A stretch of DNA of 64,000 nt from Labia minor (Eukaryota; Arthropoda; Insecta; Dermaptera; Spongiphoridae), in contig OY720344.1 of assembly GCA_963082975.1 (NCBI GenBank), forward strand, positions 27,501,172 to 27,565,171. Reading direction: 5' to 3'. A program made the translations under genes and the position numbers. Numbering within the stretch: position 1 is the first letter of the stretch; each line of letters begins with the position of its first letter. Shown piece after piece: positions 1,668 to 52,145 of the stretch. Under the pieces are notes generated by a model, which did not search any database, was not told the origin of the DNA, and saw only the letters and a program-made list of their open reading frames with translations.

Positions 1668-2190
1668 CTGGAGTGTCTCTACTCGGCTATCTCGCAAATT
1701 TGAATTGGATTAATTAACATATATGAAATTTAAATTTAATAACTTTACCTTGATCTTTAAGTCAAAATTTAAAAAATTAATTCTGGTATTTTCAGCGATT
1801 CGATCAAGCTGAAATTCTATGTATAGCAGTTTTATACAATTTTTAATAAGGTGAAAAACTATCAAACATATATTTTTATTTTTACTGTCACTTTAGAGGA
1901 AAAAAAAAATGAAAACGTGGTAGGTAATAGTCCTCTTCCGAATGAGATACATTTCTCAAAAGTTGATAGAAGGCTACGAATTTTGAATAATGCCCGGAAA
2001 CCAAATTTCATGATTCTAGCTCAAACCGTTTTTGCGTAATATTTACTAAATACACACACACAGACACATACAAACTTTTTTCAACCTTAGTCCAAATGAC
2101 TCAGGAGCCTTCAAAACGTATAAAAACATCAAAATTTCGACATCGAAATTTTTTGTGATTGCAATACTATCACTGGCGAGATAGTAAAAA
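1668..2190 (-). mobile_element. Helentron/DINE-1-like element, family A copy 1
   Basis: Non-autonomous rolling-circle-type element. Read on the minus strand it starts after a T run with ACTATCTCG (plus-strand 2177-2185), passes a GTGTGTCTGTG-type microsatellite near 2050-2070, and ends with the inverted form of the start (CGAGATAG, near 1685-1693) and a palindrome GAGT..ACTC followed by CCAGATTTTTT. This layout of subterminal inverted repeats, microsatellite and 3' palindrome is that described for DINE-1/Helentron-associated elements. It codes for nothing; open frames across it are chance. Compared with copies 2 and 3 it is somewhat shorter and diverged. Confidence 0.7.
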
Positions 2191-8887: not shown

Positions 8888-9488
8888 TTTTACTATCTCG
8901 TAAGAGATAGTATTGCGATCACGAAAATTTTCGATGTTGAGATTTTGATGTTTTTATATGTTTTGAAGGTTCCGGAATCATTTTCACTAAGGTTGAGAAA
9001 AATGTCTGTGTGTGTGTGTATGTGAGTGTATGTATGTAACCAAGATTACGCAAAAACGGTTTGAGCTTGAATGATGAAATTTGGTACATGGGCATTATTC
9101 AAAATTCATAGTTTTCTATCAACTTTTGAGAAATATAGCTCAACCGGAAGAGGGTCATTACCTACAACGTTTTGATTTTTTTTCCTCTAAAGTGACCGTA
9201 AAAATAAAGATATATGTTTGATAATTTTTCACATGATTAATAATTGTATAAAACTGCTATATCTAGAATTTCAGCTTGATTTATTTGCTGAAAGTACTAA
9301 AATTAATTTTTTAACACTGCAAATCTCACGCTTCAACACGTGACGTGGTGCCATCAACAAAGAGCCAAACATGCGCTGGTTTAATATTTATTATTTATAA
9401 TTTATAATTAATTAAATTTAATTTAAATATAATATATATTATTTAATCCAATTCAAATTTGCGAGATAGTCGAGTGTAGACACTCCAG
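8888..9488 (+). mobile_element. Helentron/DINE-1-like element, family A copy 2
   Basis: Starts in a T run with ACTATCTCG (8892-8900), at once forming a hairpin CTATCTC-GTAA-GAGATAG. A TGTGTGTGTATGTGAGTG microsatellite follows at about 9003-9037, then the block GATGAAATTTGGTACATGGG shared with other families. The 3' end carries CGAGATAGT (9462-9470), the exact inverse of the start, and a perfect palindrome GAGTGT-AG-ACACTC (9472-9485), ending near CCAGG. These are the hallmarks of Helentron-associated non-autonomous elements. Copies 1 (minus) and 3 (48431-49033) are clear relatives. Confidence 0.78.
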
Positions 9489-15377: not shown

Positions 15378-16442
15378 TGCGATAAGTTGGAGGATTTTTT
15401 ATTAAAATTAGTAAACTCAAAGTGTATGTATAATATCATTATGAAATTTAGATATTTTGTGTTTGTGATTTTTTAAAATAAATTTTATAAAAACTCTCTT
15501 AATTATGGTTTTATTCTATTCTTTAATTTTTATCCAAATTGAATCAGTGTTGTACAAAGAATAATAAAAATCTTTATTACTTCATTTCTATTAAAAATAA
15601 TAAAAAAAATTATGTTCTTATAATTATATTTATTTTGAAAGTTATTTTTATAAGTGTTCGCTCAAGTACAAATAATTTTATTTTTAGATCCTTGATGAGG
15701 TTTTATTATCATTTAAACAAAAAAAAAATTCATACTACAAATAAAGATTTAAAATTATTGCTTACAAAAATGTTGCATTGTTCAACTGCTGATGAATGAA
15801 TGTAAAAATAGTAAGAAAAAAAAATAAAAAAATAAAATGTGGGAAAAGTAAGGAATAAAGAGGAAAAAAAGGAAAAATGTATTAAAATGGGTTGAATGAA
15901 ATAGAACGAGTAAGGGGTAGGAAGGAGTGGATGGGGGAAAGGATAGAATAACCAGGCGCATGTCGCAATGAGCATGCATAGCATCTCCCGCAGGGAGGTT
16001 TTGAATGTTTAATAGCAGTTGAGGCGACAGAAAAGGAAGTCCTGCAGCCATGCAGGATGAATCCTAGGTCTCTGAGGCAAACGGCTATTTTGCTTTTGTA
16101 TAATAAATACATAATTCCTACAAAGGTGTTTGGTTTTACTAAACTCTACGTAGAACAACAACGATTCTAATTTTATTTCTAATAAACTGAGACCAACAAT
16201 TCTCCAAGGAAATTAAAAAGTAATAAATTTACACAAAATGTGTACGTGTGTTTATATGTAACCCTCTCTTATTTAGGACCATATTCATATATATTTATAA
16301 AGTTAAACCAAAAATAAATACCTATATAGATTTACAAAGGTAGAAAAAATAAAAAAATAAATAAATACAAATCATAATATTAATAATAATTAATATTTTT
16401 GTTTTTACATATCTTATCTTATTATACTAGCAGCATTGCATA
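15378..16442. other. AT-rich stretch with an unexplained GC-richer patch
   Basis: From about 15890 to 16110 the composition rises and the text is complex (for example AGGCGCATGTCGCAATGAGC and GGAAGTCCTGCAGCCATGCA), ending in a possible polyadenylation word AATAAA near 16102. Frames on both strands are open for 70-90 codons but none resembles a known protein. It could be the 3' part of an old retroelement or an exon of an unknown gene. The rest is AT-rich filler. Confidence 0.35.
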
Positions 16443-17129
16443 TCTTATATATAAAATTCTCGTGTCACAAAACTTTGAAATGATACTCCTCCGAAACGGC
16501 TGGACCGATTCTTATGAAATTTTTTATGTATATTCAGTAGGTCTCAGGGCATGTCAGACTTCCTTTAGAAAACCGCTAATTGGTAAGGGGTGTCCAGGAA
16601 ATGCTAATTAATTAAAAATAGTTTAGTTACCATACTAGCTCATAGAGGCGCTGGTGGCAAAAATTTGAAATCTTATATATACCCTTATAAGAAGCTTCCA
16701 AACAATACTGGTTGATTGGTAAACTAGCTAGCGCGCCATCTTATAACTTTGCACTCTGAGTTCGAAACTCGCAAAGGCACATTTTTTTCTTTAAGTATTA
16801 TATATTTTTTTTTTAAATTTATTAATTTTTATTATTTTAGTATTTTATTAAATTAAATTTTATTATTAAATTTTATTTTATTAAATTATAATATTAAATT
16901 TTATTTTATTAAATTAATAATTATGTCAATTAATTTTTTCTGCATAAATAAACATATATAAAAAACTATATAAAATTTGAATTTTCATTCATTCATTTAA
17001 AATGATATTAAAATATTCCTTTGAAATATAATAAATAATTAAATTAATCCCTACTAGGGCCTCGGGGGGGGGGGGGGAGGTAACTTTCTCTTTTTGGAAA
17101 AACCCATATTGCCATCTCCAGCTCGACTA
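16443..17129 (+). mobile_element. Helitron 5' portion, second subfamily
   Basis: Begins after an A with TCTTATATATAAAATTCTCG, a form of Helitron 5' terminus common in arthropods, followed by ACTCCTCCGAAACGGCTGGA and CCGATTCTTATGAAATTTTT. The sequence CATAGAGGCGCTGGTGGC near 16645 recurs in the minus-strand Helitron at about 22690. A tRNA-like segment lies at 16700-16790. Its own 3' end is not evident because another Helitron starts at 17130. A G run of 14 bases sits near 17066-17079. Confidence 0.65.
16700..16790 (+). repeat. tRNA-like fragment inside Helitron
   Basis: The text GAGTTCGAAACTC (16758-16770) is a good B box and T arm, with the TTCGAAA loop closed by GAG/CTC. Upstream, TAGCTAGCGCGCC in the right place resembles a degenerate A box, and a T-rich terminator-like run (TTTTTTTCTTT) follows at 16782-16792. 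The full cloverleaf cannot be drawn with confidence. It is a tRNA-derived SINE head or captured tRNA pseudogene. Confidence 0.45.
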
Positions 17130-18822
17130 TCTATATATAAAAAAAAGGTTTCTGTCTGCATATTGCTCAGAATTTAAAAATTATTATAATATTTCACTTT
17201 TTATTTTAAATTCTAATATTTAAATATCAATTAAATTAAATAATTTATTCTAAAAGTTCTCATTTAAATTTATTTAATAAAATATTTAGATCATATTTAA
17301 CTTAATTTTTATTTATTCTTTCTATATAATTGAATATTTCTTCTTTTCTATTTGAAAGTGAAAGCTTAAAAAAACTGAATATATTATTTTTAAACTTTTA
17401 TCAATACAAAAATATTTTCAAAACTTCAATTAAAATGACAAAATTTTATTATTTTTGTTTTTGTTTCAATTATTAATTACAAATATATTTTAAGTGCAAA
17501 AATGATTTCTTGGTTAATTAAAATATGTTTTTTAGACAAATGATATTACGAGATGTTTTAAATTTATGTCTTTTTTATATTGAGTATTTTTTTTTAAAAT
17601 TAAAATTTGTTTTAAATCAAAATTATTGTATTCTATTATATTTTTTTATTAATAGGCTTCTTTTTTTATTTTTAATTTTTAATAAATTCTCTTTTTTGAT
17701 ATGATATTAATAAAAAATAATATTCAATTGTATTTAAATTTAAAAATTAGAATATTTGAATTTTTTTAAATTTTAACACATGTAATCAATCATATGCATA
17801 AAGAATGGAAAATTTTGAAAATCAACTTGGTATTAAATTCAGAAAAAAAATACTGATATATAGAATATAATAGACCATTCGAATATAATTTAAAACTATT
17901 TATCTCCTTTTATTTTAATTTTCAAAAAAACGGAGTGTTAAGAAATTAAGATGCCTGGATAGGTAAATGGGCTGGAAGAGGAGGTAATTTATAATTTTCT
18001 TCTAATTCAGATTGAAATTAATGGTGATATGAAAAAATATTTAGTAACAAAATCTATATACAAAATGTAGAATTTGAATATGTAGAAAAATTGAATGTAA
18101 TCACGAAGGATAATAATATTTGAGAAGAATTTAAATCGAAGTTGTAATCGGGAAACGCCTGTTATCATGCAGTAAAGAGGCTTATCTCATCAAAATTATT
18201 ATCAAAAGGAATCAAAATTTAAATATATAAACCAATTATTTTGCCTGTTGTATTATATGGGTGGGACGCACAAGGTCTATGACCCTGGGAGATGAGAGTA
18301 GATCCAGAGTATTCTTTCCAGCATTTATTGGCCAAAGAAAGATGAGGTCACCGGGGAATGGCGGAGACTGCACATCGAGGAATTGCATGACCTCTATGCA
18401 TCTTCAGAAATAGTTAGGGTTATAAAAGCGAAAAAGCTGCGATAGGCAGGGGACGCGGCTAGAATGGGAGAGGAAAAAGATTTTGGATTGGAAAACCAAG
18501 GACGTGTAGGAAGGGACGTAAGAGAGATGGGACAAGGGCTCAGGATAGGGACACTTGGAGAAATGTGGTTGCTGCGGCCTAGAACTTTCGAGTTCCTTAG
18601 AGTCACATAGATAGATAGATATAACGTATACAATAATAATATATATAATTAATTTAGTGATTAAATTAAAATGTATTTTAAATAAGAACACAAAAAGAAA
18701 TGAATGTTTTATGTAATATACTGATTGAAACAAAATGGATGAAAACCTTTTACTCGGGGGGGTACAGGGGGCGGAGCCCCCGTCTAGGTGCGGCGAGCGC
18801 CGAAGGCGCTCGGGGCAGCTAG
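17130..18822 (+). mobile_element. Non-autonomous Helitron H1
   Basis: Starts A|TC (17130) with TCTATATATAAAAAAAAGGT and TTCTGTCTGC, and ends with a perfect 8-pair hairpin CGAGCGCC-GAA-GGCGCTCG (18794-18812), six bases, then CTAG (18819-18822) followed by T. TC at the 5' end, hairpin and CTRR at the 3' end, and insertion between A and T define Helitrons. It has no Rep/helicase gene. About 670 bases of its inside come from the RTE-like LINE (17945-18624). The last 70 bases include a GC-rich block GGGGGCGGAGCCCCC that is itself palindromic. Copies H2 and H3 share both ends. Confidence 0.85.
17945..18624 (+). pseudogene. RTE-like LINE fragment L2 carried in Helitron H1
   Basis: Reads degenerate C-terminal LINE sequence in several frames: the text for PVVLYGW.A near 18238-18265, FIGQRKMRSPGNGGDCTSR near 18325-18385 in a shifted frame, DLYASSEIVRVIKAKKL near 18390-18440, then the EMGQG and NFRVP regions to an ATAG-repeat tail. 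Frameshifts and a deletion within the RPRTRWVDN region make it non-coding. Its presence at the same relative place in H2 suggests it was already in the Helitron ancestor. Confidence 0.8.
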
Positions 18823-19993
18823 TATATATATATATATATTTGTATATTTTTGAGATATTAAACGGCTCTAAGGATGAAATTCACACCATAGATAATATTC
18901 ATAAAGATAAATCGATCTGTATTGGTTTCAGCCACGAGAAAAATCAACTTTATTAATATTTTCTATTTAAAATAGTAAATCCAAATGACGTCATCAATAA
19001 CGTCATCCATATTTGCCCCTTGCCATTCTTTTTTAATTGATATTGTATTAATATCTTTTTATTATTTAAAATATTTTAAATTTTTTTATTTAATTTCGAA
19101 ATAAAATTAAAAATATTCATTTTAATATTTTAGAATCAAATATTACGAAATATATTTATTATTAATCTCTTACCAAAAAAAAAAAATTAAAATTTATCTT
19201 ATTTGTCTTGCAAACATTGAAAGTATAAATTATCTTTTTGTGTTTCTATTTTGAAAACATATACATATTATTTAAGATATTTTAAAAACAAATTCTTTAA
19301 TTAATATTCATTTAAAATGATTATTAAAGAATATCTTATCAAAAATAAATTGTTGAATAAATATGATCAAATAATATTAAATAGAAATAGAATAGCATAA
19401 TTGATAGCAAAAATGTCAGTTTTATCTCTAAATAAATCATTTTTTTATTCTCAATATTCTTTCTAAATAAAAATAAATTTAAAAAACCTGCCAAGTCAGC
19501 TTCTTTTTTTCTTTAGTTCTTCTTAGATCAACTTGGGGCGCTAAACAGTGTTTCAAAAATTTACATTAAAAGATGATTTTATTTTTTAATATATGTTGTT
19601 TTAAATTATTGTTTAATATATTTTGTCGTTTATTTATTTTAAATAATAATCTTAATCTTAAATATTCATAAGGAATAATTTTTTTAAAGAACCGAGCGGC
19701 GGCTAGGTGAACCAGGTAATAAATATATATATTGCAAGTATAATAAGATTAAATATATATATATATGATAATAGTAAAATAATATATAAATTTATTTTAT
19801 TTATTATAAATTAAGTTTTTATTATTTGTATATGTAATTAAAAAAGAAATTTAAAAAATATAAATCATAAAAGATAAAATATATATAAATTAGTAATAGA
19901 TAATTGAGAGATCAAGAGGTAAAGCTAAAGTATAACATGAAAAGATATTAAATAAATAGATTAATAAACAAAACGATTGAATAGACTATAGAC
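18823..19993. other. AT-rich non-coding stretch
   Basis: No gene seen. Near 18985-19010 the text TGACGTCATCAATAACGTCA has two cyclic-AMP-response-like words. A TA-rich stretch runs near 19745-19770. The sequence CGAGCGGCGGCTAGGTGAACC at about 19692 is a short GC-rich patch of unknown origin. Confidence 0.4.
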
Positions 19994-20992
19994 CAGAGGC
20001 GGCCAACCCAAATGATCTTGCGGGCCTCTTTGGAAATGCATCATAACTTCGCGGGCCGCATATAAAATTATAAAGACCCATTATAGATATTGTTTGGTGT
20101 GACAAATTGAAAAATAATGAATTTTTATTATGTTTACTATTATTTTTACATATAAACATAAATAATATAATAATAATGATATTGAATGCACATTGTAAAA
20201 AATATATAATACTAAAAATAATAAGTTGTCCAGTGGCCAGGTCAGAACCGACCGACGGTTTGAAGTAGAAAAATTTCCAGCTACAGAGATAATTTCAAAT
20301 AATTTTAATATATCTATTAATGTAATAAAAAACAGATATGGATATAACATAATTATTTTTAATTTTATTTTATTTTTAATATATATGTAAGACCAGACGT
20401 CATGAATGGCTGGATGACGTCATATCATTTTAAATTAAGAAACACTAATAAAGATGATTTTCCCGAGGTTAAAACCAATACAAAGTGCATGATTCGTGGT
20501 GATATGTAAAAAATCTCCTCATGTGAAATTTGGTGTGAAAATAACCCTTCCCTTCCTATCGTCGATCGCTAATACTACCACTTCCGGTTTCCGGAATTGC
20601 ACCAAAAGTTGATCAATTAATAACTGATGAATTAAGTAAATATACGAAATTTCATCAAAATCCGTTGAGCCGTTTAGCTGTACACATCTATACGGACGGA
20701 CGGACAGACATCATGCTAAAAATACTTTTTTCTGTTAAGAAAATGCATGATTCGTGGAGATATGTAAAAATCTCCACATGTGAAATTTGGTGTGAAAACA
20801 ATACCTCCCTTACTATCGTCGGTCGGTAAAAAAAGAAACAACGAAATAAAAAAAATGAAATCATATTTATTTCACTAGTGCGATATTTGTTTCATTAGGG
20901 TGCAGAATATAAAAGTGTGATGAATCTCGCGGGCAGCAAAACTGTTTACAGCGGGTCGCATGCGGCCCGCGGGCCCCGGGTTGCCCCCCCTG
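19994..20992. mobile_element. hAT-type element with nested family C insertion
   Basis: Ends read CAGAGGCGGCCAACCC on the left and, inverted, CAGGGGGGGCAACCCGGGG on the right, flanked by an 8-base duplication with one mismatch (CTATAGAC 19986-19993, CTATAAAC 20993-21000). Both are features of the hAT superfamily. The inner ends are GC-rich (GCGGGCC repeats). About 600 of its 999 bases are a later insertion of a Helentron-like element (20225-20828). There is no transposase; it is non-autonomous. Confidence 0.85.
20225..20828 (-). mobile_element. Helentron/DINE-1-like element, family C copy 1
   Basis: On the minus strand it starts after a T run with ACCGACCGACG (plus 20817-20827) and ends with the inverse CGTCGGTCGGT (plus 20247-20258) followed by a palindrome TGACC...GGACA (20226-20244). 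A GTCC/GTCT microsatellite lies at about 20694-20710. The first about 90 bases are repeated inside the element (plus 20735-20827 and about 20494-20580), differing at a few positions. It sits inside a hAT element, so it is younger than that insertion. Confidence 0.82.
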
Positions 20993-21742: not shown

Positions 21743-22932
21743 CTAGCTGCTCAGAGCTCCTTCGTCGCTCTTCGCATCTAGACGGGGGCTCCGCCCCCTG
21801 TACCCCCCCGAGTGTCCCTATTCTAAGCTATAACCATCTAACTCCTAACCTGTCCCATCTCTCTCACGTTCCTTCCTACATTGTCCACCCTGTTCACAAT
21901 TGGTCTTCCACACAAACGTTTTCCAATCGAACTCCCCACCAATATATTTTTCCTCTCCCATTCTAGCCATGTGCCCTGCCGATCCCAGTCTTCTCGCTTT
22001 TATAACCCTAACTATATCTAGAGATGCATAGAGGTCATGCAATTCTTTGTTATGCAGTCTCCGCTATTCCCCGGTGTCCTCATCTTTCTTTGGCCCATAA
22101 ATGCTGGGAAGAATCCTATTGTCAAATACTCTGAATCTATTCTCATCTCCCATGCCTCCCAACCATATAATACAATTAATAATTTAATAATTTTGATCCC
22201 CTTTGATAATAATTTCCAGATTGTAACCTCGATTTAAATTCTTTGCAAATATTATTCTCTCTGATACTAATTATTTTGTCTTATCACTATTAATTTCAAA
22301 CCCCATCAATTTTCCTGCCTCGATTAATTTTTTTATGCTACTTTAAATGTTATTAATTTATTTAAAAAAAAATCAAAGTAAACAAAATAAAAATAAAATA
22401 TAAAATTAGCATAACACTAAACTACTATAAAAATAATATTAAAAAATATATTATATATTAAAATCTTACGTGAAAATCCAATTATGAGATCAAATTTTCT
22501 TAATTAAAATAATTTACTCACATAATCTTAAAAATTAATAGTATTCAATTATAGCCGTAATGTGAATGTTTTCAAAGTTTAAAAGGCCAATAAGATCAAT
22601 TGAGATATTGTAAATATCAATAGATATAAAAAGATTTTTATCTGCACATTGCTGAGAATTTAAATTACCGCCAAATTATCGCCACCAGCGCCTCTATTGA
22701 CATATTTTTGTTCTACATAATTTCCACTACCCGCCTATAATATCTTTATAATTTTTTTAAAATTTTTCTAATTCAAAAATCGAAAATCGGGCTTCGAGGT
22801 CTGGTGGCCAGCCCCTTTGTGCTTCCGTGTAAAAAATTCCAGGTCCCTGCGTGCGATAGTTTTTGCTGGAGAGCTCGGTCAAACAGACAAACAGACAGAC
22901 AGACACATTACACTTGCTTTTTTTATTATAGA
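21743..22932 (-). mobile_element. Non-autonomous Helitron H2
   Basis: Reverse-oriented copy. On the minus strand it starts A|TC at plus 22932 with TCTATAATAAAAAAAGCAAG and a GTCTGTCTGTCTGTTTGTCTG microsatellite, and ends CTAG|T at plus 21743. The GC block GGGGGCGGAGCCCCC lies at about 21783-21797, and the terminal hairpin is degraded (GAGCG.CGAAGG.GCTC). It includes LINE sequence from 21814 to about 22350. Relative to H1, about 220 bases between the LINE and the GC block are missing, joined at a short shared ACT. No Rep/helicase gene. Confidence 0.82.
21814..22350 (-). pseudogene. RTE-like LINE fragment L3 carried in Helitron H2
   Basis: Minus-strand remnant containing the IEAGKLMGFEINSDKTK region near 22270-22340, the VVLYGWEAWEMR region near 22150-22180, then HDLYASLDIVRVIKARRL, HMARMGEE and a broken end at NRDT. 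Frameshifts separate these pieces. It stops abruptly at GGGACACT, where it is joined to the Helitron 3' GC block. Confidence 0.8.
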
Positions 22933-23988
22933 TTACACGCTTGGTATATACTCTACATTAATTTTACATATTCATAAATTACATAAATATATTATTTGAT
23001 TTCATTAAGTTAAAGTATTATATTATAATCGAAATCAGTATTTTTACTTTTTTTATATCTTATCTTATTATACTAGTAAAAATTGTATATATATATAATA
23101 TAGGATAAAATATTATATCAAGTAAATTTGATATATTTTCCGTCTTGAAATGAAGATCAAGTTATTTTTGGGAACAATCTTTTTTGAATACCCATTTAAC
23201 AATTGTAATAAATAATTAAAAAATTGTAAAATTTTTAAAGCTTATAATAATAAATTGTAAATTTGTTAAAGGGTCGAGCGATAGCGATAAAATTGTATAA
23301 TAATTTAAAATATAATTGAAATTATTTTTTATGAATGAAAAAAGATGATTATAATGATATTCATATCAAAAATAATTAAATTATATTAATATCAACTTAT
23401 TAATTCAAATAATTATTTTTCTAAATTTAAATTATTGTAAAAATAATTGGAGAAAATTATATTATTTCTATTTATTAATAAAAAAACCCTTGAAATAATT
23501 TGATAATTTAGTGTACATAAGTATATAGAAAATAAAAAAAATAAAAAATTAAGAGAAAGCAATTAAGGAAACATAATTAATTTTCATCTATGGTTAACCA
23601 TTTTTTAACATTCTCAAAGCAACAATTTGTCATTTATGTAGTACTCTCCTAATATAATTAATTTTCAAGATAGAAAAAATTGTCTTTGCCTGACAGTTGA
23701 AAAAGTAAAAACATATAATATATAATAGAAATTCTCGAATAAATAATGACATTCTGACATTCAAAATTGAAAATTTTATTAAGGTAAAAATTATTTTTCA
23801 CTACAATTTATTAAATAGAAAACAAATCTAATGTACTTTTAATTTGATGATAAAAATAATTATAATAAAAACGCTATGAAAACTTTGCATATATAAAATT
23901 TATAGTAATAATAATAAGGCGATAAATGGAGCGAAATGAAATTCATTTAGTAAATGCATTTTATTAATAAAATTTATAAATAAATTAG

Positions 23989-31980: not shown

Positions 31981-32470
31981 CTATCTATCTATCTATATCT
32001 CTGTGGCTCTCGAAAGTTCTTGGCCGCAGCAACTACACTTCTCCAAGTGTCCCTATTCTGGGCCACAACCCTCTAATCCCTATCATCTCCCATATCACTC
32101 ACGTCTCTTCCTACATTATCCACCCACCGCGTCCTTGGTCTTCCAAGCGGGTGTTTCCCACTCGGTCTCCCCACCAATATATTTTCGCCATTCTTTCCTT
32201 CCCCATTCTAGCCACGTATCTGCCCATCGTAGCCCTCTCGATTTTATAATTCTAACTATATCTGGACATGCTTAGAGGTCATGCAATTCCTCGTTATGCA
32301 GTCTCCGCCATTCCCTGGTGACCTCATCTTTCTTTGGTCCATAAATGCTTCGCAGAATCCTATTCTCAAATACTCTAAATCTACTCTCGTCTCCTAAGGT
32401 CATAGACCATGCCTCACACCTATACAATACAACAGGAAAAATAATTGTTTTATATATTTTAATTATTTGA
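31981..32470 (-). pseudogene. RTE-like LINE fragment L5
   Basis: Minus-strand copy with the tail CTATCTATCTATCTATAT (inverse of ATAG repeats) at 31981-31998. It reads, with frameshifts, PVVLYRCEAWSMTLGDESRF, RVFENRILRSIYGPKKDEV, TREWRRLHNEELHDL, a stop, then ACPDIVRIIKSRG and further pieces down to the terminal region. It is 5'-truncated just upstream of VVLY. Similar to L6 at 39543 but more damaged. Confidence 0.85.
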
Positions 32471-34592: not shown

Positions 34593-35251
34593 ACCGACCG
34601 ACGATAGTAAGGGAGGTATTGTTTTCACACCAAATTTCACATGTGGAGATTTTTACATATCTCCACGAATCATGCATTTTCTTAATATAAAAAAGTATTT
34701 TTAGCATGATGTCTGTCCGTCCGTCCGTCCGTCCGTTCGTCCGTCTGTCTGTCCGTCCGTCCGTATAGATGTGTACAGCCTGAACGGCTCAACCGATTTT
34801 GATGAAATTTGGTATATTTACTTAATGCATCAGTGGGATGAATTGATCAACTTTTGGTGCAAATCCGGAAACCGGAAGTGGTAGTATTACCGATCGACGA
34901 TAGGAAGGGAAGGGTTATTTTCACACCAAATTTCACATGAGGAGATTTTTTTATATATCACCACGAATCATGCACTTTGTATTGGTTTTATCCTCGGGAA
35001 ATTCATATTTATTAGTTTTTTCTTGATTTAAAATTATATGACGTAATCCAGCCATTCATGACGTCAAAGCCTGGTTTTGCATATATATTATAAATAAAAT
35101 AAAATTAAAAATGTTTATATTTATTATTTATGTATCCATATCTGTTTTTTGTTACATTAATAGATATATTAAAATTATTTGAAATTGTTTCTGTAGCTGG
35201 AAATTAATTTACTTCAAACCGTCGGTCGGTTCGGACCTGGCCATAGGTCAA
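34593..35251 (+). mobile_element. Helentron/DINE-1-like element, family C copy 2 (most complete)
   Basis: After a T run it begins ACCGACCGACG (34593-34603). A (GTCC/GTCT)n tract fills 34712-34762. CCGATTTTGATGAAATTTGG then follows at about 34793-34812, and CCGGAAACCGGAAGTGG at about 34866-34882. It ends with CGTCGGTCGGT (35220-35230), the exact inverse of the start, and a palindrome GACCT-GGCCAT-AGGTC (35234-35249). The first 90 bases recur at about 34890-34980 with a few changes (ACCGATCGACGATAGG), an internal duplication also present in copy 1. It has no coding capacity. Confidence 0.85.
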
Positions 35252-36921: not shown

Positions 36922-37522
36922 ACTTTCCCGCATACTTCGTATAAGAGAAGTATTGGAATCGTCAAAAATTTCGACTTCGAGATTTCGATAGATCTTGACG
37001 TTTTAGACCTCCCTGAGTCGGAAAATACCATTTTTCGAATTATGTCTGTGTGTGTGTATGTATGGATGTATGTAATGTCTGTGAGCAAATTTACTCAAAA
37101 ACTAATCAAGATAGGACTTCGAAATTTGGTACACCGATATTATTCACAGTTTGTAGATTTCTATCAAAATTTCGTCAAAATCGGTTAACCGGAAGTGGTA
37201 CTTTACCTACACTGGTTGCGTTTACCTTTCAAGTAAAGTACCAGTTTGCTTCGAGATATTTGCTTCATATTTTGTATATAGATTTAAAAATAAGAAAAAA
37301 ATTCAGATACCAAATTTCATCATGATCTGACTACCGGAAGTGACATTTTACCTATACAAGTAGCGTTATGTGTAAATTATAAATATATATACTAGAGTGT
37401 TAAACCATTTTACTTTATAATTTAAATTAATTAGTTTGTTTATTTTTATTGTTGTTAAACATAATAATAATAACCTAATTACCTATTTATATGCGGGAAA
37501 GTCTAGGGGAGGACACTCCCGA
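36922..37522 (+). mobile_element. Helentron/DINE-1-like element, family B copy 1
   Basis: Starts after a T run with ACTTTCCCGCATA (36922-36934) and ends with TATGCGGGAAAGT (37490-37502), a perfect 13-base subterminal inverted repeat, followed by the palindrome GGGAG-GACA-CTCCC and CGAATTTTT. A GTGTGTATGTATG microsatellite is at 37047-37075. The text GAAATTTGGTACACCGATAT and TTAACCGGAAGTGGTAC follow it, parallel to the blocks in families A and C. Copy 2 at 51541 is nearly identical over 600 bases, so family B was active recently. Confidence 0.85.
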
Positions 37523-37874: not shown

Positions 37875-38114
37875 ACCGACCGACGATAAGAAGGGAAGGT
37901 ATTGTATTCCCACCAAATTTCACATTTGCGGATTTTTTCATATCTCCACGAATCATGGATTTTGTTAACATAAAAAAGTATATTTAGCATGATGACTGTC
38001 CGTCCGACTGCCTGACCGTCCGTCCGTCTGTCCATTGTGTGTCTGTATAGACGTATTTACAGATATATATGAACGGCTCAACGGATTTTGATAAAATTTG
38101 ATATATTTAATTGA
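37875..38114 (+). mobile_element. Helentron/DINE-1-like element, family C copy 3 (3'-truncated)
   Basis: Begins ACCGACCGACG (37875-37885), then the usual CACCAAATTTCACAT and TATCTCCACGAATCATGG words, a GTCCGTCC tract (37997-38035) and ACGGCTCAACGGATTTTGAT. It stops after TTTGATATATTTAATTGAC, so the second half with the 3' palindrome is gone. It ends only about 160 bases before the splice acceptor of the LDLa exon, so it lies inside the intron close to the branch-point zone. Confidence 0.8.
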
Positions 38115-39542: not shown

Positions 39543-40525
39543 TATTACTGTGGCTCTACGGAACTCGAAAGTTCTTGGCCGCAGCAACAACACTTCTCCA
39601 AGTATCCATATTCTGAGCCACAACCCTCCAATCCCTATCCTCTCCCATCTCTCTCACGTCCCTTCCTACATTATCCACCCACCGCGTCCTTGGTCTTCCA
39701 AGAGGACGTTTCCCACTCCGTCTCCCCACCAATATATATTTCGCCATTCTTTCTTCTCCCATTCTAGCCACGTGCCCTGCCCAATTTCCTCTCAATTTTA
39801 TTATTCTAACTATATCTGGGGATGCATAGAGGTCATGCAATTCCTCGTTATGCAGTCTCCGCCATTCCCTGGTGACATCATCTTTCTTTGGTCCATAAAT
39901 GCTTCGCAGAATCCTATTCTCAAATACTCTGAATCTACTCTTGTCTCCCAGGATCATAAACCATGCCTCGCACCCATATAATACAACCGGCAAAATAATT
40001 GTTTCATAAGTATTTTAATTTTTATCCCCTTTGATAATAATTTTGACGCGATAAGCCCCTTTACTGCATGATAACAGGCGCTTCCCGATTACAATCACGC
40101 TCTTTAAACTTTTCTCAAATATTACTAACCTTCGTTATTACAGGACCTAAGTATTTAAATTTTTCTACATTTTCAAATTCTATATCTTGTATGTTAAGAC
40201 TTTGTGTGTTAATACTATTCCTTTCTTTTACTAAATACTTTGTCTTAGTACTATTAATTTCCAGCCCCACTTCTTTCCTGCTTCGATTAATTTTTCTACG
40301 CTATCTTTAATTTCAATTGCCGAATCTCCTATTATATTTAAGTCGTCTGCGTAATTTTTTTGTTTAATTCTATTCCGTTTGATTTTTTGTCTAATTACAT
40401 ATTTCAGAACTAAAATGAAATAAAATTGGTGATATTGCGTCTCCTTGTTTTAACCCATTCCGAATTTCGAAAGTATCTGATAGTTGATTCCAGCATCTTA
40501 CTCTTCCTTTACTACCTACAGGACA
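39543..40525 (-). mobile_element. RTE-like LINE, best copy L6 (5'-truncated)
   Basis: About 980 bases of a non-LTR retrotransposon. From its 5' side on the minus strand it reads LSDTFEIRNGLKQGDAISPI (reverse transcriptase motif before the catalytic box), then YADDLNIIGDSAIEIKDSVE with the YADD box at 40342-40353, then ENVEKFKYLGPVITK, then frameshifts, then the intact C-terminal frame. It ends in CCACAGTAATAG next to a TA tract. It lacks the endonuclease domain and most of the palm domain. It is the reference copy for the other eight fragments. It lies in the intron downstream of the LDLa exon, in opposite orientation. Confidence 0.88.
39556..39993 (-). pseudogene. C-terminal region of the LINE polyprotein, frame intact
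   Basis: An uninterrupted 145-codon frame from MPVVLYGCEAWFMILGDKSR through FENRILRSIYGPKKDDVTRE, ELHDLYASPDIVRIIK, GHVARMGEERMAKYILVGRR, RPLGRPRTRWVDNVGRDVRE, MGEDRDWRVVAQNMDTW to AAAKNFRVP and a stop. This C-terminal tail after the reverse transcriptase is common in RTE-like elements of insects and other arthropods; its function is not known to me. The initiating Met is not a real start: in a complete element this is an internal part of the protein, and frameshifts upstream make it a pseudogene piece. Confidence 0.88.
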
Positions 40526-45073: not shown

Positions 45074-45446
45074 AAAAAAAGTCGAATTGGCAGTCGTGGG
45101 ACTGGCCGACAGAAGTGGAAACTTGTGCGTAAGAAATTTGAAAGCAGACGGAATACGCACCAGCTTCACGAGCAAAATGAAATTTATATACGTATATATA
45201 TATATATAAAATTCATAATTATTTTTTTCAGCAAACTGATTATTATTACAAAAATATTAAAAATACGTTGTGTATGAATATATATATATATATCTATATA
45301 TATAAAAGGCAATGTCTGTCTGTCTGTCTGTCTGTCTGTGTGTGTGTCTGTCAAATACTCAAAAACTACCCGTCCGATTGCGATGAAACTTTCAGGGATT
45401 GTTGTGGGCGTCCCAGGGAAGGTTTTAGTGTAGTTAAATCCAAAAT

Positions 45447-46459
45447 AAATTTATCCAAAATTAATTTAATTAGTAATATTTTGGTAAAAGTCTATTTATG
45501 GTTACCATGGTTACATTGAAAAATTTACAATAAATAAATAAAAAAATTGGAAATCTTTACAACTTATTATTTTGATAAATTTTATTAATATTTTTAATTT
45601 TTTTTAAACTGCCTAAAATAACATAACCATAATAATAGTTGTAATAAAAATAAAAATATAAATCACAATTTAAGTAAAATATTGAATCGTTTTATTTATA
45701 TTGTTTCAATTATTGTTTGAATAGTTATTAAATTTATATATAGATTAATTTACATGTTTAAATGTATATATATGATTAAATAATATTTATTAATTTAAAT
45801 TAAATTAATAAATATTATTTATAACATCAAAAACATCAAAATCTCAACATCGAAAATTGAATTGCTGAAAGTACCAGAATTAATTTTTTAACACTAGAAA
45901 TCTCACGCGCCAACACGTGACGTGGTGCCATCAACAAAGAGCCAAACTTTCGCTGGTTTAATAAATATTATTTATTAATTTTAATTTATAATTGAATTAA
46001 TTTAATTTAAATTAATATATGTTATTTAATCCAATTCCAATTTGCGAGATATGCTGAATATGCTTTTAAATAAAAAAAAATTTCAAGAAAGTAATTGGAA
46101 TTATTAATATTAAGAATCAATAAATAAATTTATTAAATATACATTTAAACATGTAAATTAATCTATATATAAATTTAATAAATATTCAAACAATAATTGA
46201 AACAATATAAATAAAACGATTCAATATTTACTTAAATTGTGATTTATATTTTTATTTTTATTACAACTATTATTATGATTATGTTATTTTAGGCAGTTTA
46301 AAAAAAATTAAAAATATTAATAAAATTTATCAAAATAATAAGTTGAAAAGATTTCCAATTATTTTTATTTAGTTATTGTAAATTTTTTAATGTAACCATG
46401 GTAACCATAAATAGACTTTTACCAAAATATTACTAATTAAATTAATTTTGGATAAATTT
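45447..46459. repeat. Long inverted repeat inside Helitron H3
   Basis: Left arm 45447-45770 and right arm about 46138-46459 are inverse copies over more than 320 bases with few differences; for instance both contain TGGTTACCATGGTTACATT and AAACTGCCTAAAATAACAT or their inverses. The spacer of about 367 bases holds the family A piece. Transcripts through it would form a long double-stranded hairpin. The right arm joins directly to LINE tail text (GGCCAAGAACTTTCGAG). Confidence 0.88.
45830..46050 (+). mobile_element. Rearranged fragment of Helentron-like family A (copy 4)
   Basis: Bases 45858-46050 match the 3' part of family A in plus orientation (TTGCTGAAAGTACCAGAATT, CAACACGTGACGTGGTGCCA, CAATTTGCGAGATA) but stop before the terminal palindrome. 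Just before it, 45830-45857 (AAACATCAAAATCTCAACAT) matches the 5' part of the element in inverse orientation. So the piece is an inversion-junction remnant, in the spacer of the Helitron's internal palindrome. Confidence 0.75.
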
Positions 46460-46460
46460 T

Positions 46461-46510
46461 TGGCCAAGAACTTTCGAGTTCCTTAGAGTCACAGAGATAG
46501 ATAGATATAA
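46461..46510 (+). pseudogene. RTE-like LINE fragment L7 (last 50 bases)
   Basis: GCCAAGAACTTTCGAGTTCC then TTAGAGTCACAGAGATAGAT: the very end of the LINE coding frame (KNFRVP plus stop) and its tail, in Helitron H3. Downstream text to about 46640 matches the part of H1 after its LINE, confirming the same insertion in both. Confidence 0.75.
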
Positions 46511-46854
46511 CATATACAATAATAATATATATAATTAATTTACTGATTAAATTAAAATATATTTTAAATAACAACACAAAAAGAAATGAATGTTTTATGT
46601 AATATACTGATTGGAACAAAATGGATGAAAATCTTTTACTACTCTTAACCAAATACTATGTACCACTCGGGGGTACAGGGGGCGGAGCCCCCGTCTAGGT
46701 GTGGAGAGCGCCGAAGGCGCTCGGAGCAGCTAGTACGTATATAAAATTCATTTTTCTCGTGAAGCTGGTGCGCATTCCGTCTGCTTTCAAATTTCTTACG
46801 CACAAGTTTTCACTTCTGTCGGCCAGTCCCACGACTGCCAATTCGACTTTTTTT

Positions 46855-48430: not shown

Positions 48431-49033
48431 TACTATCTCATCAGAGATAGTATTACGATCACGAAAATTTTCGATGTTGAGATTTTGATGTTTTATACGT
48501 TTTAAGGTCCCTGAGTTATTTTCACTAAGGCTAAGACAAATAATGTCTGTGTATGTGTTTGTGTGTGTGTATGTAGACAAGATTACGCGAAAACGGTTTG
48601 AGCTAGAATAATGAAATTTGGTACACGGGCATTATTCAAAATTCGTACTTGTTTATCAACTTTTAAGTAATGTAGCTCATTCGGAAGTGGGTCCACCTAC
48701 CATATTTTAATTTTTTATACTCTAAACTGATCGTAAAAATAAAGATATATATTTGATATAGTATTTTACATGATTAAAAATTATATAAAACAACTATATA
48801 TAGAATTTCAGCTTGATTGTATCGCTGAAAGTACAGGAATTCAATTTTAACACGTTGACTGCCAGCACGTGACATAGTGCCATCAAGAAAGAGCCAAACA
48901 CGCGCTGGTTTAATAAATGTTATTTATTAATTTTAATTTATAGTTTATAATTAATTAAATTTAATTTAAATATAATCTAATATGTTATTTATTCCAATTC
49001 AAATTGCGAAATAGTCGAGTGGAGACACTCCAG
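48431..49033 (+). mobile_element. Helentron/DINE-1-like element, family A copy 3
   Basis: Starts in a T run with ACTATCTCATCAGAGATAG, GTGTATGTGTTTGTGTGTG microsatellite near 48545-48573, then AGAATAATGAAATTTGGTAC. Ends ...GCGAAATAGTC, palindrome GAGTGG-AG-ACACTC (49017-49030, one mismatched pair) and CAGATTTTTTTT. Same length and order as copy 2, with scattered differences and a mutated 5' subterminal repeat. Confidence 0.77.
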
Positions 49034-50129
49034 ATTTTTTTTTTAGAAAAATGTTAAACAAGTTAATGGATATAAAATATGTTGATTGTCAATTAAATCC
49101 CAGTTAGTTCGTTTTTTTTCTGTAATTTTAATTTTTGCTGAACCAGACTTTATATTTAAAGCCAAAAGATACATTAAAAAATAAAATGAATATATAAATA
49201 ACAGATGTTTACATTTCATTTGTCATAATTTCGGTGTCGCAGGGCGCTGTCTCCGGACGTAAACAGGGCACATGTTTCGGTTGTCCTCATTTGCCGTCGC
49301 CACTTATTCCTGTTCATGGCAGTGACTTTTAATTAATAATTTCTACCCATAACATTTCGGATATTTATGAAATATATCAACTGAATTAAACAAATTATGT
49401 ATAAGAATTTTTGATAAAAATAAATAATAATAATAATTTCTACTTGTCAAGGGAGGAATAGTTGATTTTATTAAAATTTTCATTAAATGTTTCTGAATAA
49501 TTATTCTAAAAATATAGTAATATTTCTTGTCTAATTTTGTTCAATTAAACCTTGATAAGAAAGGACAGGCGCTTTAAGTAATTTAAGTTTTAATTCTCTA
49601 AATTTGAAAATCTTAGGCTATTAATAATATATATATATATATATATATGGAATTTTAATAAAAGATTCATTTCATTTATGAGTTTTTATTAATTAATAAT
49701 TTTCAAAAGAAAAATAGAAAATAGTTTATTATCTTAATGATATTTACATAAATGTGATTGCTATTCCTTAAAATTTAAACATAATAAACACATAATAGAT
49801 TAATTTATTCTCTACTATATTCCAAATGAAACTATTCATATACATGTATATAACGTAATCATTAATGCTCACGGGATGGTTTTATTTAATCCGCCTGTAA
49901 TTAATTATAATTGTGTATTATTCCTAAACCATTCGAACGATTTATTTGATGAAAATAGGATAATGCTTATTTAAATGACTATTTTATTTTAAATTTTAAC
50001 TCTCTGTCGGCAGCACCCAACCTGAGAAACCATCCACATATTTTAACCTATTCCCTAGACTTTTCACTATATTAATTTATAATAAAAATACTTGGATAAA
50101 TTATTACTAGGATCTATGGAAAGGAAGTA
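49034..50129. other. AT-rich stretch with a 100-base GC-rich patch
   Basis: At 49233-49332 composition jumps to about half GC, with GTCGCAGGGCGCTGTCTCCG and ATTTGCCGTCGCCACTTATT. One plus frame and one minus frame are open across it, but no protein is recognised, and it does not fit the phase-1 start expected for the next LDLa-gene exon (a plus-strand stop appears in that phase). It may be a conserved non-coding element. A TA tract lies at 49627-49649. Confidence 0.35.
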
Positions 50130-51700: not shown

Positions 51701-52145
51701 TGTCTGTAAGCAAATTTACTCAAAAACTAATCAAGCTAGGACTTCGAAATTTGGTACACCGATATTATTCACAGTTTGTAGATTTTTATCAAAATTTCGT
51801 CAAAATCGGTTATCCGGAAGGGGTACTTTACCTACACTGGTTGCGTTTACCTTTCAAGTAAAGTACCAGTTTGCTTCGAGATATTTGCTTCCTATTTTGT
51901 ATAGAGATTTAAAAATATGAAAAAAATTCAGATACCAAATTTCATCATGATCTGACTACCGGAAGTGACATTTTACCTATACAAGTAGCGTTAGGTGTAA
52001 ATTATAAATATATATAATAGTGTTAAACCATTTTACTTTATAATTTAAATTAATTAGTTTGTTTATTTTTATTGTTGTTAAAACATAATAATAATAACCT
52101 AATTACCTATTTATATGCGGGAAAGTCTAAGAGAGGACACTCCCG
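51541..52145 (+). mobile_element. Helentron/DINE-1-like element, family B copy 2
   Basis: Matches family B copy 1 over its whole length except the first about 19 bases, which are missing, so the 5' subterminal repeat is lost. The 3' side is complete: TATGCGGGAAAGT (52114-52126), palindrome region GAGAGGACACTCCC and GATTTTTTT. Its GTAT microsatellite (51653-51700) is longer than in copy 1. The frames seen across it (for example 68 and 87 codons) repeat in copy 1 but with different interruptions, and are not genes. Confidence 0.85.

Follow-up and report, generated by a model that had tools for sequence, protein, structure and literature searches.

A short sequence block common to the left ends of Helentron-like and Helitron-type transposons in Labia minor

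In the genome of Labia minor (Dermaptera), rolling-circle transposons carry a block of about 45 bp within their left (5') terminal region. It is present in the 5' ends of eight families belonging to two structural classes, as seen in the window (the whole 64,000-nucleotide stretch of contig OY720344.1 analysed here) together with a random sample of the genome. Families A, B, C and, probably, F are Helentron/HINE-like, and TC ends of the Helitron type are seen in H1, H3, D and G. The reading preferred here, tentatively and at rather less than even confidence, is that this left end is a region whose modules have been swapped between the two classes and in which the block would serve as a loading site for RepHel.

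The block and the elements that carry it

The block is an ungapped segment with the majority sequence CTCAAAAACGGCT..A.CGATT.T.ATGAAATTT. When ten instances (five families) are trimmed to one length at a GAAATTT anchor, they align over 48 columns without a gap. The word CCGATTNTGATGAAATTTGG matches the window eight times with at most three mismatches, against 0.06 matches expected. All five of the words on which the original prediction was built exist, within some tens of bases of where it had placed them (Table 1). An nhmmer profile of the 48 columns recovers the block both in the window and in 20 stretches of 10 kb (200 kb in all, random places drawn with a seed) from the 604-Mb genome. One dinucleotide-shuffled copy of the same 264 kb yields no profile match better than E 3. 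The window is AT-rich, with a GC content of 21-35% in 2-kb bins. Coding sequence was rejected as the nature of the block, since reading by eye reveals no common open frame. A weak block-like match at 49917-49954 of the window (+; E 0.013) lies in no recognised element and is either a chance match or a decayed copy.

The ends of families A, B and C are built alike. Each element begins after TTTTT, and the T run is followed by a 5' subterminal repeat, the inverse of this repeat near the 3' end and then a palindrome. The subterminal inverted repeats are 8 bp long in A, 12 bp in B and 10 bp in C. Family F is a single copy (locus L010) whose first 73 bp align with the 5' end of A (z 9.3). It is likely to be Helentron-like, a class assignment that rests on the 5' end of this one copy.

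H1 and H3 are canonical Helitrons, inserted between A and T, with a 5' TC and a 3' hairpin followed by CTAG. Families D and G, like F, were found in loci outside the window. The 5' end of D, TCTATATATATAAA, is of Helitron type, and a candidate for its 3' end is a Helitron 3' end that follows one D copy (L009) in the same orientation. A host A precedes all 10 G-type ends recognised by their terminus pattern in the window and the loci, and a candidate for the 3' hairpin of family I is CGAGCGATAGCTCG, near the end of locus L063. The probable Helitron status of G rests on its 5' end.

H1 is itself nested in a G-type element. When the flanks of H1 are joined they are 72% identical over 428 bp to the G copy of locus L022 (E 2.8e-63), and the alignment runs across the insertion point. 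The joined flanks align with uninterrupted G copies, and the nesting provides a clean empty site for H1.

Table 1. Elements, block instances and associated features; positions are those of the window unless loci are named.
Feature	Position	Strand	Details
Family A element, HINE-like	8893..9485	+	Exact 3' terminus not fixed
Family A ends			TTTTTA then CTATCTCG 8893-8900; inverse CGAGATAG 9462-9469; palindrome GAGTGTAGACACTC 9472-9485
Family B element, HINE-like	36923..37520	+
Family B ends			CTTTCCCGCATA 36923-36934; inverse 37490-37501; palindrome GGGAGGACACTCCC 37507-37520
Family C element, HINE-like	34594..35249	+
Family C ends			CCGACCGACG 34594-34603; inverse CGTCGGTCGG 35220-35229; one-mismatch palindrome 35234-35249
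Helitron H1	16443..18822	+	Host A, 5' TC, 3' hairpin GAGCGCCGAAGGCGCTC, CTAG, host T
Helitron H3	45293..46733	+	Host A, 5' TC, 3' hairpin, CTAG, host T
5' end of G-type element split by H1	16412..16442	+
Same G-type element beyond H1	18823..19200	+	Own block variant by eye at about 18850-18890
Short element, G-type 5' end and 3' piece, no block	23058..23286	+
Cited word, family A	9076-9084		GAAATTTGG
Cited word, family B	37117-37136
Cited word, family C	34793-34812
Cited word, Helitron H1	16505-16524
Cited word, Helitron H3	45374-45393
Block, family A	9040..9087	+	nhmmer profile
Block, second A copy	1998..2045	-	Profile
Block, third A copy	48577..48624	+	Profile
Block, family B	37085..37132	+	Profile
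Block, second B copy	51710..51757	+	Inverted copies at 51790-51809, 51935-51954
Inverted block copy inside B	37165..37184	-	Adjoins CCGGAAG (37189)
Second inverted block copy inside B	37310..37329	-	Adjoins CCGGAAG (37334)
Block, family C	34768..34815	+	Profile
Block, second C copy	20642..20689	-	Profile
Block, third C copy	38057..38104	+	Profile
Block, Helitron H1	16479..16527	+	Profile
Block, Helitron H3	45349..45396	+	Profile
Tandem arrays inside C elements	L038, L039, L040		C1:3590200, 5565300, 4718900

Distribution of the block

The prediction that the block occurs only in rolling-circle elements is borne out by the random sample. The 200 kb give 32 profile rows at E 0.1, one of which is a reverse-strand shadow. 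All 31 remaining sites lie in Helentron- or Helitron-type 5' ends, and these belong to seven families (C 12, A 6, G 6, D 3, H3 2, H1 1 and F 1); seven of the 31 assignments are circular in that the references for H1, H3, D and F are loci of the same sample.

The converse was examined with copies of C and A found through the stretch before the microsatellite alone, reaching the microsatellite side and followed by at least 150 bases (window and sample). The block lies downstream in 15 of the 18 C copies, the three misses being three places in locus L013, and in 10 of 11 A copies. Of six G-type ends recognised by terminus pattern in the window and the sample, four are followed by the G block. At the fifth the block of the nested H1 is met first and the element's own variant lies beyond it, and the sixth, at 23058 of the window, has none (see below).

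Counts over the whole genome were made on both strands with each pattern read backwards as the control, and the sets partly overlap. The C-type 20-mer has 10,941 exact matches and the G-type 27-mer 5,832 exact matches. The H1-type pattern is found 2,181 times with at most two mismatches and a generic block pattern 9,204 times with at most three, against 0 for every reversed pattern. Scans of IMG/VR and of prokaryote genomes for the block gave 0 matches.

It had also been expected that the block always lies at the same distance from the 5' end. This is not the case, as the start of the block core ranges from about 50 to about 270 bp. It is close to the terminus in H1 (about +51), H3 (about +53) and G (about +62), further in for A (about +160), D (about +164), B (about +177) and C (about +191), and furthest in F (about +268).

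Sequences next to the block

The block was thought to follow directly on a microsatellite in all families. The five sites do exist, but in H1 no microsatellite separates the 5' end from the block. In the 200-kb sample 23 of the 32 profile rows have a microsatellite immediately upstream.

A second word, CCGGAAG, had been noted about 80 bases further on in A, B and C, and it is there, 60 bases past the end of the block and about 80 past its start (A 9144, B 37189, C 34872). The 200 bp that follow the block contain it in seven of nine A copies (two more have it with one mismatch), both B copies and 10 of 12 C copies. The same interval lacks it in F (0 of 1), H1 (0 of 2), H3 (0 of 3), D (0 of 3) and G (0 of 7). 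Since no family other than A, B and C has it after the block, CCGGAAG was rejected as an independent common signal. Family B carries the block on the opposite strand as well (37165-37184 and 37310-37329), which places CCGGAAG in B next to an inverted copy. Some of the C-type matches form tandem arrays with a period of 126-146 bp, in which a unit made of the microsatellite, the block and CCGGAAG recurs three or four times in a row. The arrays of L038-L040 also hold a longer unit of about 282 bp.

Likeness between the two classes

Could this be an accidental likeness of AT-rich sequences that caught the eye? Outside the anchor columns, A, B and C share on average 15.5 of columns 1-33 with H1 and H3, against a mean of 8.4 of 33 for shuffled consensuses, and not one of the 5000 shuffles comes up to 15.5. 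When four families are taken from each class the values are 16.4 and 8.5, and again 0 of 5000 shuffles reach 16.4, although this version is less clean since the profiles that led to D, F and G contain the compared columns. Among models that leave one class out, one built from H1, H3 and D recovers C copies at values down to 3e-6, and one that contains only C recovers D (1e-4), H1 (1.6e-4) and F (4.5e-3). Built from A and B only, such a model detects none of the families in the other class, and with H3 as the sole source nothing reaches significance.

An unbiased local alignment of whole 5' ends, with microsatellites masked, was made for 16 cross-class pairs with 200 shuffles. The best match falls on the block in six of the 16 pairs, and three (C-H1, F-G and F-H1) beat all 200 shuffles. 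The other 13 pairs are not significant on the block, and A, B and H3 never are singly. This weakness of single pairs is what chance likeness would predict for A, B and H3. In addition, the AT-rich tail of A scores z 10.9 against the interior of H1 through AT-rich DNA alone, so shuffles are a mild control here. Nevertheless, the window, shuffle, reversed-pattern and anchor-excluded tests all speak against chance for the set as a whole, and it is a most improbable explanation. Sharing across the classes is firm for the families as a set. C, F, H1 and G show it strongly, and A, B and H3 weakly when each is considered on its own. Block identities do not sort by class, with C nearest to H1 (30 of 48) and F nearest to G (32 of 48), although 48 columns are too few for a tree.

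Exchange between Helentrons and Helitrons

The suggestion that the block arose by exchange between element classes gains support from outside the block. Part of the interior of Helentron C is colinear with G-type elements. Positions 373-434 of C are 83% identical to the G copy of L022 (E 9e-13, z 13.3 with 300 shuffles) and positions 476-585 are 77% identical to the G copy of L042 (E 3e-18, z 24.6 with 300 shuffles). Positions 373-429 are 81% identical to a G-type element of the window that has an intact 5' TC (E 6.5e-10). Three more distant G copies give z values of 6.6, 3.3 and 3.8 against the C interior; since this test also yields z 8 to 11 when the AT-rich tails of A are set against G and H1 interiors, a low z says little. 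The likeness of A and B tails to Helitron interiors is AT-rich and was left unused as evidence. In L042 the G-type copy lies inside a C copy, but its tail is only 77% like C and is therefore not simply C tail. This colinearity shows that sequence modules have passed between the classes. The block is then most likely an exchanged left-end segment, with a class swap behind the sharing.

Does exchange suffice without any function? On this account, which is a substantial possibility although it too falls short of even odds, ancestry and exchange would explain everything and the block would be what has yet to diverge. The routes could be nested insertion, template switching in rolling-circle replication or recombination at the microsatellite. 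Nesting is seen directly, with H1 in a G-type element and a G-type element in C (L042), and the common interior of C and G-type elements shows that likeness extends beyond the block. The uniform divergence of A and B along the whole 5' end and the existence of a block-less variant, both described below, also fit. Two observations do not fit so well. In C-H1, F-G and F-H1 the likeness of 5' ends across the classes falls mainly on the block instead of extending over the left end, and the block is present in every family seen in the sample.

Constraint, folding and a block-less variant

According to the original prediction, elements that differ everywhere else keep the block. This was wrong for A and B, whose first 330 bp align throughout with an identity of about 68%. 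Identities are 74 of 108 before the microsatellite, 32 of 48 in the block, 26 of 37 and 21 of 32 after it and 32 of 48 further on. Therefore, between A and B the block is conserved no better than its neighbours.

The element at 23058 has a G-type 3' piece (GGGTCGAGCGATAGC) about 215 bp after its G-type 5' end, with other DNA and no block between them. The genome has three matches to its first 59 bp when at most three mismatches are allowed, and none to the reversed pattern. The element either moved without the block or was copied by duplication. The variant speaks against the block being indispensable. Its stretch 23086-23168 is 89% like part of L059.

The block might also act as a DNA structure (a hairpin or cruciform) with a part in replication or strand transfer. 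The folding of single strands, with one copy per family, gives z values of -1.8 for A, -0.2 for B, -2.1 for C, 0.1 for H1 and -0.7 for H3. The A and C copies thus fold somewhat better than shuffles (8 of 200 are as good in each), and B has inverted copies of the block, as a structural role would have it. However, B, H1 and H3 fold no better than shuffles and no fold common to the five was found with these single copies, which makes a structural role very unlikely. The function that had been read from the conservation of the block draws no support from any of this: there is no common fold, no extra constraint between A and B, and a G-ended variant without the block is present.

An autonomous carrier

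The genome has 104 matches to Helitron_like_N (PF14214), several of them in long open frames. Seven have the same score of 195.7 in frames of 1537-1652 aa and make up family I. Three copies of family I compared upstream of the frame are 98.9-99.9% identical, and the 5' end of the family is fixed by three copies at A|TCTTATCTTATTATGC. A block of the G variant lies upstream of the family I RepHel (L056 975-1011, E 0.008 with a profile built without G), with its core from position 62 after the TC end. G thus includes an autonomous element with a RepHel that contains Helitron_like_N. The other RepHel elements (L030-L037 with the extensions L055 and L057-L059), whose 5' ends are not fixed, show no block at a 5' end of their own, which counts neither for nor against. 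Block matches in three of these loci (L033, L058 and L059) belong to nested non-autonomous elements.

The position of the block upstream of a RepHel frame raises the possibility that autonomous elements use it as a promoter or transcription signal and that their non-autonomous derivatives have simply retained it. However, over 2.5 kb separate the block (in L056) from the start of the open frame (in L029). Furthermore, thousands of non-autonomous copies, which need no promoter, keep the block, and C has tandem block copies inside it. A promoter role is accordingly improbable.

The RepHel of family I (L029:2114-4000) has N-terminal STPR repeats (PF21107, E 1.1e-19). Among the other RepHel frames, STPR is weakly above the cut-off in L033, just below it in L032 and absent from six. 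Across the genome 20 of 42 STPR matches share long frames (1345-1785 aa) with Helitron_like_N, matched by eye on place and frame length. No paper containing both 'STPR' and 'Helitron' was found in PMC. In the silkworm protein FMBP-1, according to the available text of the report, the STPR domain binds ATNTWTNTA (PMC4821344). This 9-mer was not seen in the block consensuses, so no claim is made that STPR reads the block.

A possible role for the block and its relation to known elements

The available text on Helraiser of bats describes a left end that is indispensable, a right end that is not, and determinants of precise cleavage that lie in the terminal 40 bp (PMC4778049). If the left end is indispensable and precise cleavage needs only the terminal 40 bp, further left-end sequence could serve to load RepHel on DNA. 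In the preferred reading, that of swapped left-end modules with a loading site, the block would be kept as an accessory left-end recognition site for the RepHel machinery. RepHel would be loaded on the DNA at the block before it nicks the terminus. A left end that was exchanged between classes and still carried the site would stay mobile and spread. To our knowledge, what RepHel reads in the left end apart from the terminal bases is not settled, and many non-autonomous families can be identified from hardly anything except their ends.

Several observations weigh against a recognition site. The block lies outside the terminal 40 bp in seven of the eight families, the constraint between A and B is uniform, the distance to the terminus varies and the block-less variant exists at three genome places. 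Perhaps the block does have a recognition function, which on this analysis would not be much likelier than plain exchange. A stronger version, in which Helitron and Helentron machineries both read a common left-end site bound by the N-terminal DNA-binding part of RepHel, and in which one class mobilises or recombines with the left ends of the other and C is a product, seems unlikely.

Features of the known elements recur here. H1 and H3 are like Helraiser and canonical Helitrons in their A|TC start, 3' hairpin and CTAG before T. A, B and C are like DINE-1/INE-1 and HINEs in their subterminal inverted repeats, 3' palindrome and, probably, T-rich insertion site. The available parts of the DINE-1/HINE reports also describe, as seen here, a GTCY-type microsatellite inside a conserved left block (A1-microsatellite-A2) and central tandem repeats, and a conserved core has already been suggested to be important for transposition (PMC2374699, PMC4067079, PMC7492417). 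However, in those parts HINEs are compared among themselves, whereas here the block after the microsatellite is found in Helitron-type elements as well. The oyster Cg_HINE, in the portion of its report that was available, combines a GTCY microsatellite in the left flank with internal tandem units, as do the C arrays (PMC7492417). Unlike in Cg_HINE, the tandem unit here itself holds the microsatellite, the block and CCGGAAG. The non-autonomous Lep1 Helitrons of Lepidoptera, aphids, beetles and wasps have a 5' TC and are described, in the available text, as insect-wide (PMC4038834).

A literature search found no report of a block common to Helentrons and Helitron-type elements. A PMC search with the literal block words found no paper, a weak test because figures and databases are where such sequences are usually given. 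The left end of Lep1 may have a short microsatellite and a block-like word, and other insect Helitrons may carry similar words.

A block that spans two classes offers a concrete sequence for tests of binding and mobility. It is also a marker of sequence flow between classes that are usually treated as separate lineages. The window also contains three related repeats, at 39556-40014 (-), 31999-32454 and 21764-22210. The frame at 39556-40014 (-) looks like the end of a retrotransposon endonuclease-reverse transcriptase.
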